Assembly: GCF_022340605.1 (NCBI RefSeq)
Contig: NZ_JAJDNQ010000094.1
Span: 1 to 64,000, forward strand
DNA length: 64,000 bases
Reading direction: 5' to 3'
From: Thiohalocapsa sp.
GTDB taxonomy: Bacteria > Pseudomonadota > Gammaproteobacteria > Chromatiales > Chromatiaceae
The position numbers and the translations under genes were made by a program. Below are positions 12,779 through 19,627 of this stretch, piece after piece. The notes beneath the pieces were generated by a model, which made no database searches, had not been told where the DNA came from, and saw nothing but the letters and a program-made list of their open reading frames with translations. The stretch's first letter is position 1. Each line of letters opens with the position of its first letter.

Positions 12779-14059
12779 ATGATCAACGCTTGCGCGCTCT
12801 CGCATCCGACTCGTTTGATTCGGCGGCTTTCCCTTGCCGCTGTCTTCGTCGCGGCAGCCGGCGGCGCCATGGCCGACAGCGCCGCGGAAAGCAGCGGCAA
12901 GAGCACGCAAATCTCGGCATCGACCCCTGAGCCCAAGCGCTTCGTCGTTCGCGGCACGTCTGTCGTGGACCAGTCTAGCGGTACGAAGGTCTTCTTCCGT
13001 GGGGTCGGCTACTCGCCCTACGTCCCCGGAGAGACGCCGCTGAACGGTGCATCTCCAGGCGACGATGACCGCTATTCGGAGCACTTCGCACACATTGCGG
13101 AGTTGGGCGTCAATTATCTGCACGTGTTTCCGCTGCTTATGCCGGCCGGCTTCTTCGCGGCGCTGGACAAGACGGATCTCGCCTACGGCCAGGACATCTG
13201 GGTCAAAGGCAATGCGGAGGACTTTCTGGACCAGGGCTTCCAGGCGAGCACGCTGGCACAGATCAAGGCGGTGATCGATCACACCTATGCCGTCGGGCGC
13301 CCCGACCGCCTGGTGCTGTTCTCGGTGGGCGATGAGCTGTCGGCCCAATCAGTGACCGCTACGAACGCTCGGCATTCGGATGTGCACGACTATCTGGGCA
13401 AGCACGTCCAGGTGAAGGGCCGCACCCCGACGGAGGTCGCCCTGGCCCGGCTGATCGATGCGGCCATGGACTACGAGCTGACGCGATACGGCCAGCGCCA
13501 TCTCTATTGCCACACCAGCTGGACGCACATCGGTCCGGTCGCCGACCGCCCCGACCTGGAGGTGGCCGCGGACGACGTCCTGTTGCCTGACATGGGTGAC
13601 CTGTTCTGCCTGAACATCTACACCTATGCCCGCGGGGTGGTTACGTCACCGCCCGGTTCGGTCACCGGAACGACCTATCAGGGCTATCTGGACGAGCTCC
13701 TCGCGCGGGCCACGAAGCCGGTGCTCATCACCCAGGTGGGCCTGTCCACGTCGCCCATCACACCGAAGCCCTGGGTGCCGGGCTGGGGCGGCCACGGGGT
13801 TTCCGGCGTACCAGCGGTATTTCGGTCGGTGTGGCGGGATGTGCGCACGGCGAAGGACAAGGAGAAGATCGCCGGGCTCGTGTTCTTCGAGTTGCACGAC
13901 GAGTGGTGGAAGAGCGGCGAGACCCCCGACGACAGCACCCGCCATGAGGAGAATGACCCGGAGGAATGGTTCGGGCTCTACGAGATCGGTACGGACAAGC
14001 GTCTGACGCCCAAGGGGCGCATCCCGGCGGCCGTGCGGGGGTTGTTTACCCAGCCTTGA
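12779..14059 (+). CDS. Secreted TIM-barrel glycosidase-like protein
   Basis: This 426-residue protein has a Sec-type signal peptide (positive start, hydrophobic core at about residues 17-31, cleavage near 'AMA-DS'). The mature N terminus 'FVVRGTSVVD' and 'KVFFRGVGYSP' resembles GH72 and GH2-like TIM-barrel enzymes that remodel beta-glucans. 'SVGDEL' (about residue 181) and the 'FFELHDEWW' segment (about 364-372) sit where acid/base and nucleophile carboxylates are expected, though I cannot confirm the pair. The C terminus 'WFGLYEI' followed by 'LTPKG' also fits that group. It stands alone on the plus strand and converges on the sulfotransferase operon. The 241 bp upstream contain only a perfect inverted repeat (GGATTGA-gg-TCAATCC, 12574-12589) of unknown role. 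The family assignment is moderate and the substrate unknown. Confidence 0.6.
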   Translation: MINACALSHPTRLIRRLSLAAVFVAAAGGAMADSAAESSGKSTQISASTPEPKRFVVRGTSVVDQSSGTKVFFRGVGYSPYVPGETPLNGASPGDDDRYSEHFAHIAELGVNYLHVFPLLMPAGFFAALDKTDLAYGQDIWVKGNAEDFLDQGFQASTLAQIKAVIDHTYAVGRPDRLVLFSVGDELSAQSVTATNARHSDVHDYLGKHVQVKGRTPTEVALARLIDAAMDYELTRYGQRHLYCHTSWTHIGPVADRPDLEVAADDVLLPDMGDLFCLNIYTYARGVVTSPPGSVTGTTYQGYLDELLARATKPVLITQVGLSTSPITPKPWVPGWGGHGVSGVPAVFRSVWRDVRTAKDKEKIAGLVFFELHDEWWKSGETPDDSTRHEENDPEEWFGLYEIGTDKRLTPKGRIPAAVRGLFTQP

Positions 14060-14279: not shown

Positions 14280-15344
14280 TCAAGCGGGTTGGCTCTCCAA
14301 TGCGGCGCGCGACCTTTGGCGCAACCGGTCGTAGAGTTGGGACGTCTCCTCGGCCAGCGCCGGGTCCGTCGGCTGCTCCGCGGTGACGCGACTCAAGCGT
14401 AACGGCTCGGCGTTGGCGCTGGCGTCCGTGACGTCGGCCATGTCCAGCAGCCGGTCCAGCGTCTCTGCCCGGCCGCACAGATCCTCGTAGCAGACGAATA
14501 CGGCGTCCGGCGGCGCCGTGCGCTCCAGCCAAAGGTAGCTCTGTCGCCAAAGCTCCAGCCAGTAGTCCATCTTGCGGGGGTCGAAGCGCGCGAGTCGCGC
14601 CGCACCGGCGGCATCGAAGCGGAATGGCCGGTGGTCCCCGCCGAACTCGTGGTGCGCGAGCCAAGTCATGTAGGCGCGGACGAAGGCGTCCTGCCGTTGC
14701 ACCTCGCTGAAGTGCGCGTGCTGGCGCCACAGCGAGGTCGCGTGGGTCAACGGCTCCCGGAACGGCAGCAGGATCAGCGCCCGCGGGAACAGGCGCCGTA
14801 TGGTCGTGAGTCGCAAAATGTTGTTGTTGTTCTTCGACAGATAACGTGCGTCAGGTCGATCTGTCGTGCTCAGGATTGCCGCGACGTAGGCGATAAACTT
14901 CTGCGCCGTCTCATCGTCTGGCGTGTGCGGTGCCAGATGGGTCTTGGCGATGTAGCCCTCGCCGTCCAGCACGCGCCAGAACACCTCGTCGAGGCTCTCC
15001 GGGCTGTCTGCATCGACGCGAATACCGTCGCCGTGCGCGCGCTCATGTGCCGTGACGTCACGCTTCATGCCCGCCGAGAGCTTGCCCCACAAGCGTGGCG
15101 CGAGCACGAACGGCATGTGCCGGTAGGTCAGGGAGCAAAAGTCGCCGGTCGCGTGGAAGCGTCGCATCAGAATAGTGGTGCCGGCACGCGCGAGACCCGA
15201 GATGAAGACGTGGCCTTGATGTGCGGTCTGCTCGGGGACGCTCTTCAGCCCCTGCTGATCCAGATCGAAGCTGGCCTCGGCGATCGGCCGCACTTGCAGT
15301 GCCAGCCGATGCAGCAGCCGATCGAGCGCACTATAGTCGGCCAC
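14280..15344 (-). CDS. PAPS-dependent sulfotransferase domain protein
   Basis: This 354-residue, apparently cytosolic protein has the sulfotransferase P-loop equivalent 'FISGLARAGTTIL' at residues 47-59, which binds the 5'-phosphosulfate of PAPS. The region 'LLPFREPLTHATSLWRQH' (about 192-209) fits the 3'-phosphate-binding segment (R..P...S). It is the last gene of a four-gene operon; its ATG lies inside the end of the preceding small membrane-protein gene (14-bp overlap). Its presence next to an arylsulfotransferase-like periplasmic protein suggests sulfation of an exported compound or polysaccharide, which is an inference. About 220 bp of gene-free sequence separates it from the convergent glycosidase-like gene. 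Confidence 0.85.
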   Translation of the reverse strand: MADYSALDRLLHRLALQVRPIAEASFDLDQQGLKSVPEQTAHQGHVFISGLARAGTTILMRRFHATGDFCSLTYRHMPFVLAPRLWGKLSAGMKRDVTAHERAHGDGIRVDADSPESLDEVFWRVLDGEGYIAKTHLAPHTPDDETAQKFIAYVAAILSTTDRPDARYLSKNNNNILRLTTIRRLFPRALILLPFREPLTHATSLWRQHAHFSEVQRQDAFVRAYMTWLAHHEFGGDHRPFRFDAAGAARLARFDPRKMDYWLELWRQSYLWLERTAPPDAVFVCYEDLCGRAETLDRLLDMADVTDASANAEPLRLSRVTAEQPTDPALAEETSQLYDRLRQRSRAALESQPA

Positions 15345-15708
15345 GAATCAATGCCCTTCTGGCGGCGACGTACAGACTCGCGAACACCAAGGTGAACGCG
15401 ATGCCCTGCCAGCTAAGCAGGAAGCTTTGAAACCCGCTGAAGCCGAGCTCGAACAGCACGGTCAGCACCGCGACGACGGCCGCCACCGCCAGCAACAGCA
15501 GGGCGAGCTTGAGCGTCGACAGGAAGGCGCTGCGCGCATAAGCGGCCATGGCCTTCTCTTTCCAATGGTCCGAGATCGCGCGCGCCCTCACGGTATGCAG
15601 CGCCTTGTCGCTGGCGGCAAGGAGTCCATGGATTGCGCCCTGGAATGGCAGTCGCGCGATCAACTCCACCAGGCAGACACAGAGCACGCTGCCCAGCAGC
15701 CAGTTCAC
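15331..15708 (-). CDS. Small membrane protein of the sulfotransferase operon
   Basis: This 125-residue protein has three hydrophobic segments: residues 2-17, about 66-86 and about 98-115. Between the first two is a charged loop with 'DHWKEKAM'. No known domain was recognised. Translation starts at GTG (15708), which overlaps the TGA of the preceding gene as GTGA, so translation is probably coupled. Its 3' end overlaps the sulfotransferase start. The position suggests a membrane partner, for example an anchor or part of an export path for the sulfated product; nothing in the sequence shows this directly. Confidence 0.75.
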   Translation of the reverse strand: MNWLLGSVLCVCLVELIARLPFQGAIHGLLAASDKALHTVRARAISDHWKEKAMAAYARSAFLSTLKLALLLLAVAAVVAVLTVLFELGFSGFQSFLLSWQGIAFTLVFASLYVAARRALIRGRL

Positions 15709-15977
15709 GACGCTTTGGACCCGCCGCCTACGCCGTTGTCGCGACTCTGCGCATCGGTTTGGGCGACCGCCGCCGCGCGGGCGGACCTGCGCTTCTTGAA
15801 CACGCGCTTGACCGGATACCAGAGGACCGCGAAGAACGCCATCACCACGGATGCGAGGATGCCGAGCACCACGGCGATGGTGCCGGCGCCTGCGCCTGGC
15901 CCGATGTATGCTTGTGCCGGGGCTGTCGTCAGCAGCCCGAGCGGGAGCAGGGCGAGGATCAAGTTGCGGGCGGACAT
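15705..15977 (-). CDS. Small signal-peptide membrane protein ('IGPGAGAG' type)
   Basis: This 90-residue protein has a cleavable signal peptide (to about residue 22, 'APAQA'), then the conserved-looking mature start 'YIGPGAGAGTIA', one transmembrane helix (about 33-54) and a basic cytoplasmic tail ('KRVFKKRR'). The ATG at 15977 was chosen over an upstream frame because it begins the signal peptide. It overlaps the end of the arylsulfotransferase-like gene by 19 bp and couples to the next gene through GTGA. Small proteins with a Tyr-Ile-Gly-Pro-Gly-type mature start occur near polysaccharide and sulfotransferase genes, but the function is unknown. Confidence 0.75.
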   Translation of the reverse strand: MSARNLILALLPLGLLTTAPAQAYIGPGAGAGTIAVVLGILASVVMAFFAVLWYPVKRVFKKRRSARAAAVAQTDAQSRDNGVGGGSKAS

Positions 15978-17329
15978 TGCCAATTCTCCACGTCTAGGGC
16001 GTTGAGAGGAAACCATTGCATTTCAGAGATCACGTAGTTTTGAGTGTCGCTACCGGGCTTCGGGTTGACCACTTCCAGCGCTACGTTGCCGTCGCGGTCG
16101 ACCTCGAAGGCGCGGCCCTGCTGCGGGCTGGATATGGCCTGATGGCCGTCGGGGTACAGCTCGTGCTTGCCGCGAATCCGGGTATAGAAACCGTTCTTTC
16201 TCCCGTCGAACAGCACGCGGCGCTTGTAGTTTGCCGGGTCGATGGCGACGAGCTCGCTGTAATCGCGGCTCATGCGGTTGTTCAAGATCAGGATTTCACC
16301 GGTGGGTAGCCAGTCCGGGTCGTGTTGCCGCTCGGTCATCCCGGCGCGCCACCACTTGATCCGCAGCGTGTCCGGATCGATCACGAACAGCAGGTTCAGT
16401 GACCTGGCGCTGATCAGCAGATCTCCGGCGGCGAAATCCTTGAAGCGGTCGGCGATGGCTGACGGCAATGGCTCCACGTCGTTCAAGTGGAACGGGTCAT
16501 ACAGCCATTTCCCTTGCGTGTTGCGGCTGTTCACGTTGAGGTCGTTGTCGTGCAGGCGACGGACCTCGAGAATGTCCGTCGTCGGGTTCGCAGCGATGAT
16601 GTCCTCAACCGGAATAGTGCGAATCACCCTGCCGTCGTCGACGGAGACTTCGGCGATGGTCGTGAACCCCCTGAAGGTCCAAACCGCATCTCGGGCTTCA
16701 TTCAGCGTGACGGCGTGGTTGAATTCACCGCCAGTCGACCAGAGTCGCTTGCCGCACGAGTCGATGCGCTGCAGCGAGATGCTGCCGTCATAGGTGAAGA
16801 TGACCGAGCCATCCGCGAGCATCTGAACGCCGTGAACGAATTTGCGGTACTTCGGTCTCGGCTCGACGCCGTCCACCGGTGTCTCTTCGAGAATCCAGCG
16901 CTTGACGATCTTCAGCTCGGGTGACAGCAGCAGGATCGCGTTCTCCAAGTGTCCATCGACCGTGAAGGTGCCGGCGAGCATTCGCCAGCCGGGCACCACA
17001 TGCCCCTGATGTACCTTGAGCAGAGGCCCTTGCACATCGATACCGGCCGATTCCGGCAGGGTCTCGAAATCGGAGTAGTCTGCATTCGCCTCGCGCTCTA
17101 CGCGCAATTCGGCGTCTTTGTAGTCCCCCGTTGCATAGCCGGCAACTTGCCCGAGGACATCCGTCACGAGGTCGGGGAAGGACGCGACTTCGACGGCGAG
17201 ATTTCCGAAATGGCCGCTACGATCTTCGCCGGCGACCTTCGACTTAACCGCCCAGCCGAAGGCGACCGTCGCGAGCGCCCAAAGCAACATGAAAAGAAGA
17301 ACCAACCAGATTGGAATAGTACGTTCCAT
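15959..17329 (-). CDS. Membrane-anchored arylsulfotransferase-like beta-propeller protein
   Basis: This 456-residue protein begins with one strongly hydrophobic segment (residues 7-28) without a clear cleavage site, so it is probably anchored in the inner membrane with the rest in the periplasm. The body has repeated beta-propeller blades and the 'HDPDWLPTGEILILNN' motif (about residue 337), like the 'HD...LPNGN' motif of arylsulfotransferase (ASST) proteins. 'RRLHDNDLNVN' (about 257) is another His-containing conserved-type segment. Classical ASST uses a transient sulfohistidine and phenolic sulfate donors without PAPS; whether this homologue is catalytic or a binding propeller is not clear. 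It is the first gene of the four-gene operon that ends with a PAPS-type sulfotransferase. Confidence 0.78.
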   Translation of the reverse strand: MERTIPIWLVLLFMLLWALATVAFGWAVKSKVAGEDRSGHFGNLAVEVASFPDLVTDVLGQVAGYATGDYKDAELRVEREANADYSDFETLPESAGIDVQGPLLKVHQGHVVPGWRMLAGTFTVDGHLENAILLLSPELKIVKRWILEETPVDGVEPRPKYRKFVHGVQMLADGSVIFTYDGSISLQRIDSCGKRLWSTGGEFNHAVTLNEARDAVWTFRGFTTIAEVSVDDGRVIRTIPVEDIIAANPTTDILEVRRLHDNDLNVNSRNTQGKWLYDPFHLNDVEPLPSAIADRFKDFAAGDLLISARSLNLLFVIDPDTLRIKWWRAGMTERQHDPDWLPTGEILILNNRMSRDYSELVAIDPANYKRRVLFDGRKNGFYTRIRGKHELYPDGHQAISSPQQGRAFEVDRDGNVALEVVNPKPGSDTQNYVISEMQWFPLNALDVENWQCPPAT

Positions 17330-17824
<495 letters not shown>

Positions 17825-19627
17825 TTAGCGGCGCGCATTCTCCGTCCCTTGGTAAACCTCGGCCGAGGCGTTGGCGCGGCCGCTAACATCCGCACGCCGA
17901 CGCTGCTTTTCCTTGTGGAGCCGCACCGCGGCCATGGCGGCGTCGGTGACGGTGTACATCTCCAGCGTGGCTGACGCCTGGTCGTCGACGGGGGTGAGCG
18001 CCTGGTCCATGTAGTCCTTGGCGCGGGGGTCGCGCTTGAGGCGTTGGCGCTCGAGGGCGAGCGGGATCAGCATGGCGAGCGCCTTGCTGTAGCCGATCAG
18101 GGAGCGGCCCAGGTACTTCGGGTAGAAAAGAAACGGGTGCTCGATGGGCAGCCCCGGGCGGCGCTCGCGGCGCACGCGGCGGCGGATGAAGCCGCTCTCC
18201 AGCGGCTGCACGCCCTCGATACAGGCGTAGACGTAGACCGCGATGGACGACCCCATGATGTTGCCGGTGCTGACCCGGTTGGTGCGGCCTCGCCGCATCA
18301 GTGTCTTGATGTGCTCCACGCTGTAGAAGCTGCGCCAAGCGTCCCGAAAGGCGCCATGCCACTCATCCCGCGACATGACCGGGTGATCGGTGGTGATGTG
18401 GTTGAGATCGTAGTTGTTGAGGTCAGGGTCCATGCGCGCGCCGCGTGCGTAGAGCGCCTTGTGGTCGGCGGAGCCGGGGAGCGGGGTCAGGCAATAGAAC
18501 TGCACCCGATCCATGGGCAATTCGCGCTTGAGGATCTCGACATCGCGGCGAATGGTCTCCGGCGTATCACCGGGAAAGCCGATGATATAGCCGCCGTCGA
18601 TGAACACGCGGTGCTGGCGCCAGGCAAGCAGCATCGCGCGGTAGTCGGTGATTTTATTCTGCTTCTTGTTGGCGGCGACGAGGTTGTCCGGGTTGATATT
18701 CTCCAGCCCGATGAAGATGCGCTTGGTGCCTGCCGCCGCCGCCTTGTCGATGAAGCGAGGGATTTTATGGCACTGGGTGTCCACCTGCAGGGTCAGGTGA
18801 ACGCCGAGGCCCTGGCGCTTGAGTGCGATCAAGCGGTCGAAGATGGGTTCCCAATTCTTGTTGCGGGCGAAGTTGTCGTCGGTGATAAAAAAGCTCTTGA
18901 TCTGCTGGGTTGCATTCTCGCGGACGATGCGCTCGATGTCGTCGGGCGTGCGGAAGCGCGACTTGCGGCCATGCACGTTGATGATGGTGCAGAAGCTGCA
19001 GACGAAGGGGCAGCCCCGGCCGGCGTCGAAGCTGGTGAGCTGGCCCAAGGTGCGCTGCACGTATTCCCGGGGCATGTACGGCGGTGCGACGCCCTCGATG
19101 CCCGGCAGGTCCGCGAGGAAGTTGTAGATGGGCTTGAGCCTGCGCTCGCGGGCGTCTCTGAGAAAGTCGTCGAAGCGGTGCTCGATCTCGCCGGCGAAGA
19201 TGGAAACGCCGAGATCCATGGCCTCCTGGATCTCCGGCGTGACCTCCTGGAGCATCGACAGGACGCCGCTGACGTGGAAGCCGCCTATGGCGACTTGGAT
19301 GCCGTGGGCACGAAAGCGCCGGGCGATGTCCATGGCGCGGGGGAATTGGTTCGTTTGCACGCCCACCAGGGCAATCAGGCCATGGCCGCCGCTACGCTCG
19401 ATCATGGCCGTGAGCCGGTCGATGCGCACGCGCGTGTTCGTCTCGTCGATTGTCGTGATGCGAAGCGCAACGCCATCGCCGAGGACGCTTCGCTCCCCGG
19501 CGTCGCGGGCCAAGGCGTAGAGCGTCGCCAGGGTGTTGGACGGAATGCCGGAGCGCCACCAGCGGATGACGTAACCGTCGTCGTCGTAGTGGGACGGCTT
19601 GAGCAGGACGAGATGAAAGCTTTTCAC
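17825..19627 (-). CDS. B12-binding-type radical SAM protein
   Basis: This 600-residue protein has the radical SAM CxxxCxxC cluster motif as C206-x3-C210-x2-C213 in 'GCPFVCSFC'. It is preceded by a Rossmann-like N-terminal region (about residues 40-130, 'GLIALVGVQTNQFP' and 'VAIGGFHVSG') resembling the B12-binding domain of this superfamily. 'FITDDNFARN' and 'IIGFPGDTPETI' are typical core segments. The C-terminal 200 residues are basic and helical and do not match a domain I know. The start is GTG at 19627. No partner gene is tightly linked, so the substrate is unknown; enzymes of this class perform methylations, rearrangements or methylthiolations. Confidence 0.85.
   Translation of the reverse strand: MKSFHLVLLKPSHYDDDGYVIRWWRSGIPSNTLATLYALARDAGERSVLGDGVALRITTIDETNTRVRIDRLTAMIERSGGHGLIALVGVQTNQFPRAMDIARRFRAHGIQVAIGGFHVSGVLSMLQEVTPEIQEAMDLGVSIFAGEIEHRFDDFLRDARERRLKPIYNFLADLPGIEGVAPPYMPREYVQRTLGQLTSFDAGRGCPFVCSFCTIINVHGRKSRFRTPDDIERIVRENATQQIKSFFITDDNFARNKNWEPIFDRLIALKRQGLGVHLTLQVDTQCHKIPRFIDKAAAAGTKRIFIGLENINPDNLVAANKKQNKITDYRAMLLAWRQHRVFIDGGYIIGFPGDTPETIRRDVEILKRELPMDRVQFYCLTPLPGSADHKALYARGARMDPDLNNYDLNHITTDHPVMSRDEWHGAFRDAWRSFYSVEHIKTLMRRGRTNRVSTGNIMGSSIAVYVYACIEGVQPLESGFIRRRVRRERRPGLPIEHPFLFYPKYLGRSLIGYSKALAMLIPLALERQRLKRDPRAKDYMDQALTPVDDQASATLEMYTVTDAAMAAVRLHKEKQRRRADVSGRANASAEVYQGTENARR

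Follow-up and report, generated by a model that had tools for sequence, protein, structure and literature searches.

A conserved four-gene cassette pairing an arylsulfotransferase-like propeller with a PAPS-type sulfotransferase: a likely sulfuryl relay of the bacterial cell envelope

Introduction

The 64,000-nucleotide stretch of Thiohalocapsa sp. DNA analyzed here (positions 1 to 64,000 of the forward strand of contig NZ_JAJDNQ010000094.1, assembly GCF_022340605.1; hereafter, the window) carries on its minus strand an operon of four overlapping genes, designated P1 to P4. The operon joins a membrane-anchored propeller protein resembling the arylsulfate sulfotransferases (ASST) to a sulfotransferase of the type that uses 3′-phosphoadenosine 5′-phosphosulfate (PAPS), with two small membrane proteins encoded between them. 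The cassette is real, conserved as a unit, patchily spread, and apparently undescribed; no description of it was found in the open-access literature searched. Its products are likely to constitute a relay that carries sulfuryl groups from the cytosol to an acceptor outside of it.

The Four-Gene Cassette and Its Conservation

P1 (15959-17329, minus strand) encodes the ASST-like propeller of 456 residues, and P2 (15705-15977, minus strand) a membrane protein of 90 residues that bears the motif YIGPGAGAG. P3 (15331-15708, minus strand) and P4 (14280-15344, minus strand) both begin with GTG and encode, respectively, a protein of 125 residues with three transmembrane (TM) segments and a PAPS-type sulfotransferase of 354 residues. 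Successive genes overlap by 19 bp (P1/P2, 15959-15977), 4 bp (P2/P3, the GTGA at 15705-15708), and 14 bp (P3/P4, 15331-15344). A first-pass annotation, made from the letters of the window and its translated open reading frames (ORFs), had proposed both this layout and the identities of the four products; the ORF coordinates agree with the former, and Pfam and hydropathy with the latter. An alternative start for P2 at an upstream ATG (16016), which would give an overlap of 58 bp with P1, is disfavored by the annotated starts of relatives. The 19-bp overlap is also present in the deposited annotations of Rhodobacter sp. CZR27 (10287/10305) and Sagittula sp. P11 (7460/7478), and the start at 15977 is supported for that reason. 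Neither P2 nor P3 matched a Pfam or NCBIfam family above cut-off. Promoters and terminators were sought at the operon and none were found, the shuffled controls having given means of 0.6 and 3.1.

All four genes are found again in Rhodobacter sp. CZR27, where P1, P2, P3, and P4 are 55, 69, 47, and 60% identical to those of the window, and in Sagittula sp. P11. When contigs were scanned using 11 aligned P1 proteins, 73 loci in named genomes were obtained, and at 58 of them P1, P2, a gene in the third position (slot 3), and P4 lie on one strand in one order. The remaining 15 comprise a locus in which slot 3 is fused to P4 (L033; loci and genomes are cited by our own L and G numbers), two loci at contig edges (L057 and L094), and 12 with P1 alone, including L102, which likewise abuts a contig end. 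The rearranged order P2-[P3+P4]-P1 occurs in Paracoccus saliphilus and Tateyamaria omphalii; the gene set therefore survives rearrangement. A held-out test at the level of the phylum, with the P1 of the window alone as query, returned 12 P1 loci in 11 further genomes, and both P2 and P4 accompany P1 at 11 of these, once in the order P2-slot 3-P4-P1 (L177). Slot 3 was occupied by the type common among relatives at five held-out loci (L170, L172, L173, L176, and L179), by the P3 type at four (L168, L171, L174, and L178), and at L175 and L177 by an unrecognized protein of 234 or 249 residues with a similar TM pattern. The twelfth locus, L169, is a solitary P1 in the genome that holds the full cassette L170. 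Each of the four genes, taken separately, has a homolog in the same four-gene cluster elsewhere, and a chance gene neighborhood is rejected. The supposition of the first-pass annotation that ASST and PAPS enzymes rarely share a transcription unit has to be reversed for this P1 family, where the pairing is the rule; its selection of the four genes as a candidate system is borne out by their recurrence together.

Solitary copies of P1 were pursued in 12 genomes, nine with P1 alone and three with a contig-edge locus (L057, L094, and L102). The slot-3 gene is present in 11 of the 12, adjoined by P4 in all 11, by P2 in 10 (the eleventh locus is cut off by the contig end), and by P1 in six. Eight of the nine solitary-P1 genomes hold the slot-3 gene and the rest of the cassette, the exception being Candidatus Mailhella excrementigallinarum; G142, G265, and G723 likewise have both a solitary P1 and a cassette. 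This distribution fits a single donor module that serves several acceptor-specific P1 enzymes.

The Propeller Sulfotransferase P1

By its profile and its motif-matched catalytic residues, P1 is assigned to the arylsulfotransferase (AST) superfamily, and sulfuryl transfer from an aryl sulfate is its predicted activity. It matched Arylsulfotran_2 (PF14269) with an E-value of 3.5e-29 and 102.6 bits (curated cut-off, 27), and hydropathy places an N-terminal TM segment at residues ~5-23. Comparison of its AlphaFold model (pLDDT 74) with solved structures using VIA gave Cpz4 as the best match (9kf6; Z 27.8, rmsd 3.0, 304 residues aligned); AssT also matched (3ets; Z 26.2, rmsd 3.8, 313 residues aligned), and other propellers scored lower (Z 22.2 or less). 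As a single sequence, P1 had no matches among PDB sequences.

Conservation was counted over 108 P1 rows (at least 400 residues, E <1e-25, identical rows once, that of the window included), and the lettering and numbering of AssT were taken from a weak alignment of the distant relative L104 to AssT (3elq, E 0.008). H205 (16715-16717, minus strand) is taken to correspond to AssT H252, and H281-x-N283 (16481-16489, minus strand) to H356-x-N358; all three residues are present in 108 of 108 rows. R309 (16403-16405, minus strand), kept in 107 of the 108, is read least surely as R374, as the spacing from Asn to Arg is 26 residues in P1 (N283-R309) and 16 in AssT. We take H252, H356, N358, and R374 of AssT to have roles in its catalysis. 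Finally, H336 (16322-16324, minus strand; 108/108) is read as AssT H436, the placement being given by the 15 residues that separate each from a conserved Asn (H336-N351 and H436-N451); N351 is likewise invariant (108/108). His436 is the catalytic residue in EcAST (PMC13426309; this and the other articles cited by PMC number are represented by passages of their text). The QHD motif of the P1 profile was also found to align with the QHD of Cpz4 (E 2.6e-6). With the AssT-type catalytic residues intact, an inactive propeller is unlikely, and the ASST-like character first ascribed to P1 holds in that a plausible active site, catalytic His and helper residues included, is conserved across the 108 rows.

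A separate observation concerns the codon at 16718-16720, adjoining the equivalent of AssT H252: the P1 of the window has Asn204 there and the other 107 of the 108 rows have His.

The Sulfotransferase P4 and the Supply of PAPS

P4 matched Sulfotransfer_3 (PF13469; E 3e-12, 47.7 bits against a cut-off of 27) and is devoid of TM segments by hydropathy. The segment GLARAGTT (15174-15197, minus strand), with R53, G55, and T57, and the segment R196...S204 (14733-14759, minus strand) are read as what we take to be the 5′-phosphosulfate loop and the 3′-phosphate site, respectively. In 90 P4 rows (at least 300 residues, E <1e-60, identical rows once, that of the window included), R53, T57, R196, and S204 are kept without exception, as are Y168, K171, and P198, and G55 is kept in 89. 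The best solved relatives of the P4 profile are protein-tyrosine sulfotransferases (protein-tyrosine sulfotransferase 1, E 2e-10). Profile and PAPS-binding residues together identify P4 as a putative PAPS-dependent sulfotransferase.

A link to the synthesis of PAPS is found at six of the 73 named loci, all in Pseudomonas or Stutzerimonas (L036, L037, L042, L050, L059, and L063), where members of one gene cluster directly follow P4. The two members scanned with Pfam are CysNC-like and contain an adenosine 5′-phosphosulfate (APS) kinase domain (E 3e-67 and 3e-68). In the genome of the window, APS kinase is encoded elsewhere.

The Membrane Proteins of the Cassette

Hydropathy places the TM segments of P3 at residues ~4-22, 68-86, and 96-114, with the motif SDHWKE between TM1 and TM2. 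At L033 (P3 profile, E 1e-25), and also at L021 and L153 (E 3e-8 and 5e-8), a P3 homolog makes up the N-terminal part of a fusion with P4; at L154, such a fusion is recognized only from position and length. Most relatives carry one common family in slot 3, and no Pfam match above cut-off was obtained for the 45 members scanned (two stray weak matches were seen). The model of this family (pLDDT 89.5) consists of a TM segment, a hairpin, a long TM segment, a beta-domain, and a further TM segment. The layout of P3 resembles it, but P3 is too short for the beta-domain. The slot-3 profile matched archaeal MJ0480 (5c8j) with an E-value of 1.1e-4 over profile positions 3-118, and VIA aligned 136 residues of the model to chain 8 of the multipass translocon 7tut, which we take to be TMCO1, with an rmsd of 3.6 and a Z of 10.8 (next row, 6.9), a value that chance can reach and that lies below the Z of ~13 advised by VIA for helical models. 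MJ0480 is a YidC protein from an archaeon and belongs to the Oxa1 superfamily (PMC8675477), and such a translocon complex contains TMCO1, also an Oxa1-superfamily member (PMC9630114). The common slot-3 family can be described as an uncharacterized one that appears, by its profile, to resemble the Oxa1/YidC superfamily.

P2 has, by hydropathy and inspection, a signal-peptide-like start ending in AQA, followed by YIGPGAGAG, one further TM segment, and a basic C-terminus. Tyr24 (15906-15908, minus strand) is the presumed mature N-terminus and is invariant: Tyr occupies this position in 86 of 86 P2 rows (one per locus, drawn from loci other than L019-L032 and the window, with a few of these loci sharing a gene), 84 of which read Y[IV]GPGxG and the others YSGPGVG and YMGAGAG. 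The strong P2 matches in the search of the class sample include rows from which the model was built, and the clean test is the held-out phylum sample. A sister family of small proteins with the motif AY[LIV]DPG[TS]GS occupies clusters of glycan type (L118-L130 and L180-L192). Its surroundings were followed at 13 places, corresponding to 13 of the 17 weaker P2 matches, with one or two members of each neighbor type scanned with Pfam; several P2-like entries in this survey are antisense or out-of-frame ORFs. A YidC-like gene lies within ~8 kb at four of the 13 places, genes for a Glyphos_transf-like (glycerophosphotransferase-like) protein and a methyltransferase occur at five each, those of the sulfatase superfamily at three, and those for a phosphoenolpyruvate (PEP)-mutase-like protein at two. 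No P1, P4, or slot-3 matches were found near the sister family at any of the 13.

Neighboring Genes and the Acceptor

Genes of the MdoG/OpgG family lie near the cassette at three of 14 loci of the class sample, 11 of the 73 named loci, and one of the 12 held-out loci (15/99). The named genera concerned, Chelativorans, Pelagibius, Alloalcanivorax/Alcanivorax, Salinicola, and Litchfieldella, belong to two classes and differ in their arrangements; MdoH is present at all three of the MdoG-bearing class loci. Within the class sample, the opgG family was found in six of 12 cassette genomes and in 52 of 357 others (Fisher p 0.005). At L025, L027, and L076, P1 stands beside an ATP-binding cassette (ABC) protein resembling MsbA and glucan exporters and genes for UDP-galactopyranose mutase or glycosyltransferases, together with a barrel protein that is weakly glycoside hydrolase (GH)-like, below cut-off; at the contig-edge locus L094, P1 is accompanied by the ABC protein only. 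A second acceptor pathway is possible at these four loci. Tateyamaria has a glycosyltransferase cluster at its cassette. We infer that the acceptor is an exported glycan and, in the MdoG-bearing lineages only, a periplasmic glucan. No report of sulfate on osmoregulated periplasmic glucans was found in the open-access literature searched.

Proposed Relay and Its Alternatives

The four products probably function in concert as a two-compartment sulfuryl relay of the cell envelope, in which the logic known from caprazamycin biosynthesis, with its enzyme Cpz4, has been moved to the envelope. In the cytosol, P4 would move the sulfuryl group from PAPS onto a membrane-held carrier, an aryl or similarly activated sulfate being expected from ASST chemistry. 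The slot-3 protein (P3 here, the Oxa1-like protein in most relatives) would recruit P4 to the inner membrane; together with P2, it would also carry the charged head group through to the outer side. P1, tethered to that membrane and with its propeller on the periplasmic side, would then take the sulfuryl group onto His336 and pass it to a hydroxyl of the exported glycan. This reading is supported by the conserved gene set, the catalytic residues and fold of P1, the fusion of P3 to P4, the PAPS-synthesis gene beside P4 in one lineage, and the solitary P1 copies of genomes in which the cassette is also present. The first-pass annotation had likewise envisaged sulfation of a carrier in the cytosol by the PAPS enzyme and subsequent transfer through the propeller; this order of events has its precedent in Cpz4, the nearest solved relative. 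We infer the carrier, the membrane step, the acceptor, the periplasmic side of P1, and the roles of the two small membrane proteins.

A number of observations weigh against this proposal. P1-like proteins do occur apart from the cassette: Candidatus Mailhella excrementigallinarum (L104, 2-14075) has nine ASST-like ORFs in tandem, one of them truncated at the edge of the locus, with no P2, slot-3, or P4 matches in the array, and G350 has a weak P1-like match in a genome lacking the cassette. The equivalence of residues in P1 and AssT comes from motif matching by eye and not from a residue-level superposition. When the slot-3 model was searched with Foldseek, nothing significant was returned (best E 0.4), and homology of P3 to the common slot-3 family was not demonstrable by profile comparison, which gave a weak match (hhalign E 0.18, probability 0.3%) that is collinear over TM1, hairpin, and TM2. 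No MdoH was found at the 73 named loci, whose MdoG-family members might hence be OpgD-like; a Pfam scan of ten genes following P4 produced one glycan gene, the glucoamylase-like gene of L051. The genome of the window, a bin that is 87% complete, encodes neither an MdoG-family protein nor a type III polyketide synthase (PKS), for which the control was positive in three of 14, and no type III PKS was seen among the Pfam-scanned neighbors of the cassette. Consequently, neither a caprazamycin-type carrier nor an acceptor of the periplasmic-glucan kind holds for the window itself. The claim for the acceptor is kept to an exported glycan because this genome lacks an MdoG-family gene and the 426-residue protein encoded next to the operon (see below) is only weakly GH-like.

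A doubtful alternative has each enzyme acting on the glycan itself: P4 would sulfate a glycan or glycolipid precursor in the cytosol, and P1 would act as a periplasmic editor that shifts the sulfate from one sugar position or chain to another, with P2 and the slot-3 protein merely anchoring the enzymes and no dedicated carrier involved. The membership of P4 in a broad sulfotransferase family is compatible with such double sulfation, the fusion of P3 to P4 fits anchoring, and Cobetia marina has a sulfated capsule cluster with PAPS and sulfotransferase genes (PMC11766843), in the passages of which the string “arylsulf” was not found. However, solitary P1 copies in cassette-bearing genomes fit a shared donor better than a shared acceptor, and Cpz4, as the precedent, uses a carrier.

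It is somewhat more improbable still that the product is a sulfated small lipid or secondary metabolite and that the nearby glucan genes are coincidental. This would accord with the lack of an opgG-family gene in the genome of the window, with the antibiotic made by the pathway of Cpz4 itself (PMC13426309), and with the majority of loci, at which no glycan gene is among the identified neighbors. Coincidence is at odds with MdoG-family neighbors at 15 of 99 loci in five named genera of two classes with differing arrangements. Furthermore, when the neighbors at 83 loci were clustered (L020, L022, L029, and L030 were set aside as duplicates of named contigs), ABC-type proteins were found at 17 and MdoG at 14, and beyond these and two clusters of antisense ORFs no family exceeded eight loci.

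That P2 is itself the carrier, with P4 sulfating its invariant Tyr before Oxa1-like insertion and P1 using the tyrosine sulfate as an aryl donor, would suit the Tyr at the presumed mature start of all 86 P2 rows, the match of the P4 profile to protein-tyrosine sulfotransferase 1 (E 2e-10), and the function of Oxa1-superfamily proteins as membrane-protein insertases (PMC8675477 and PMC9630114), but it is very improbable given that the related Y[LIV]DPG family has the same Tyr in clusters devoid of P1 and P4, that spending one protein per sulfate would be costly, and that P4 as a single sequence matched tyrosine sulfotransferases only at an E-value of 0.15.

The relay through P4, a membrane-held carrier, and P1 would explain the purpose of a long-puzzling class of bacterial enzymes, the ASSTs. 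In this operon, which is conserved in culturable bacteria, a branch of the ASSTs is linked with membrane proteins and a PAPS enzyme of its own, so that function is testable by deletion. It also suggests that sulfate may decorate periplasmic glucans and exported glycans, adds an uncharacterized bacterial family resembling the Oxa1 superfamily, and, as a PAPS-fed relay to sugar hydroxyls, could provide a useful biocatalyst. The boldest lead is the pairing of small Tyr proteins with Oxa1-superfamily members. As a speculation, unlikely as it stands, these may form a general module, an Oxa1/YidC-superfamily protein with a Tyr-x-(Gly/Asp)-Pro-Gly small protein, that transfers charged head groups from one side of the inner membrane to the other. 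In the cassette, the module would deliver a sulfo-carrier (possibly the tyrosine sulfate of the small protein) to a periplasmic ASST, and in the sister clusters, with their YidC paralogs and glycerophosphotransferase-like, PEP-mutase, and sulfatase-superfamily genes, it would do likewise for phosphorus-bearing groups. If true, this would give the Oxa1 superfamily a role other than that of an insertase.

Distribution and Genomic Setting

With the genome of the window counted in each case, P1 was found in 13 of 369 genomes of the class sample (E up to 1e-5) and in 13 of 398 of the phylum sample (E up to 1e-10). It is absent from all nine congeners and from all 92 relatives searched. The nearest relatives found are alphaproteobacterial, viz. 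those of Rhodobacter sp. CZR27 (on an 860-kb replicon), Sagittula sp. P11 (on a 38.6-kb plasmid), and Marimonas lutisalis. Vertical inheritance within the genus is unlikely in view of these absences and the location of the nearest relative on an alphaproteobacterial replicon, and the cassette was likely acquired by horizontal transfer.

The tetranucleotide composition of the window correlates with that of 13 stretches of the bin (>15 kb each, from 18 of 172 contigs sampled) with a mean r of 0.84, compared to 0.85 for the bin with itself and 0.61 for the Rhodobacter locus with the window, which argues against a mis-binned contig. Upstream of the operon, the gene at 17825-19627 (minus strand) encodes a radical SAM protein that is 53-54% identical to the copies of congeners; the bin has a further copy, on contig C53, which shares 82-90% identity with those of the congeners. 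Convergent with the operon, the gene at 12779-14059 (plus strand) encodes a protein of 426 residues that is absent from the nine congeners and has no Pfam family, its weak match (E 1e-4) being to the structure of a GH2 catalytic domain. Because of the divergent radical SAM copy and the absence of this 426-residue protein from congeners, the contig of the window may be an island or foreign, which leaves the reading of the cassette unaffected. The gap upstream of P1 contains a perfect 6-bp tandem repeat (ACGACA x 6.7) at 17567-17606.

Comparison With Known Systems

The modification of osmoregulated periplasmic glucans offers one point of comparison: OpgB and OpgC are periplasmic enzymes that decorate these glucans with charged groups. 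The likeness lies in the opgG-family genes that adjoin the cassette in several genera and in the opgH present at three loci. With the Oxa1 superfamily (YidC, MJ0480, EMC3, GET1, and TMCO1), the common slot-3 family, as modeled, appears to share the succession of a TM segment, a cytosolic hairpin, a long TM segment, and a TM segment; it differs in having a beta-domain between TM2 and TM3 and in its setting within a sulfation operon.

AssT of Escherichia coli CFT073 resembles P1 in fold (Z 26.2) and, by motif, in its catalytic residues. To our knowledge, no PAPS enzyme is encoded beside its gene, and its Pfam family is presumably PF05935 and not the PF14269 of P1. Neither the natural donor nor the natural acceptor of AssT is established according to PMC13426309, and the natural acceptors of most ASTs are described there as unidentified.

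The closest parallel is the biosynthesis of caprazamycin, in which a carrier is charged in a PAPS-dependent step and then serves as donor for an ASST-type enzyme that sulfates a sugar hydroxyl (PMC4924298). Cpz4 is an AST-type enzyme with a preference for the sugar hydroxyl of glycosides (PMC13426309), and both Cpz4 and LpmB have been linked to a sulfated aminoribose (PMC11727664). As in the cassette, a PAPS enzyme and an ASST enzyme are encoded in one cluster, and in fold P1 is closest to Cpz4. The caprazamycin genes, however, belong to an antibiotic cluster of actinobacteria that includes a type III PKS, with a presulficidin carrier made by Cpz6, whereas the cassette of the window would act in the envelope and has two accompanying membrane proteins. 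The combination of a PAPS enzyme, a carrier, and an ASST is thus a known logic, from which the cassette departs in its proposed envelope setting and in the membrane proteins that go with it.

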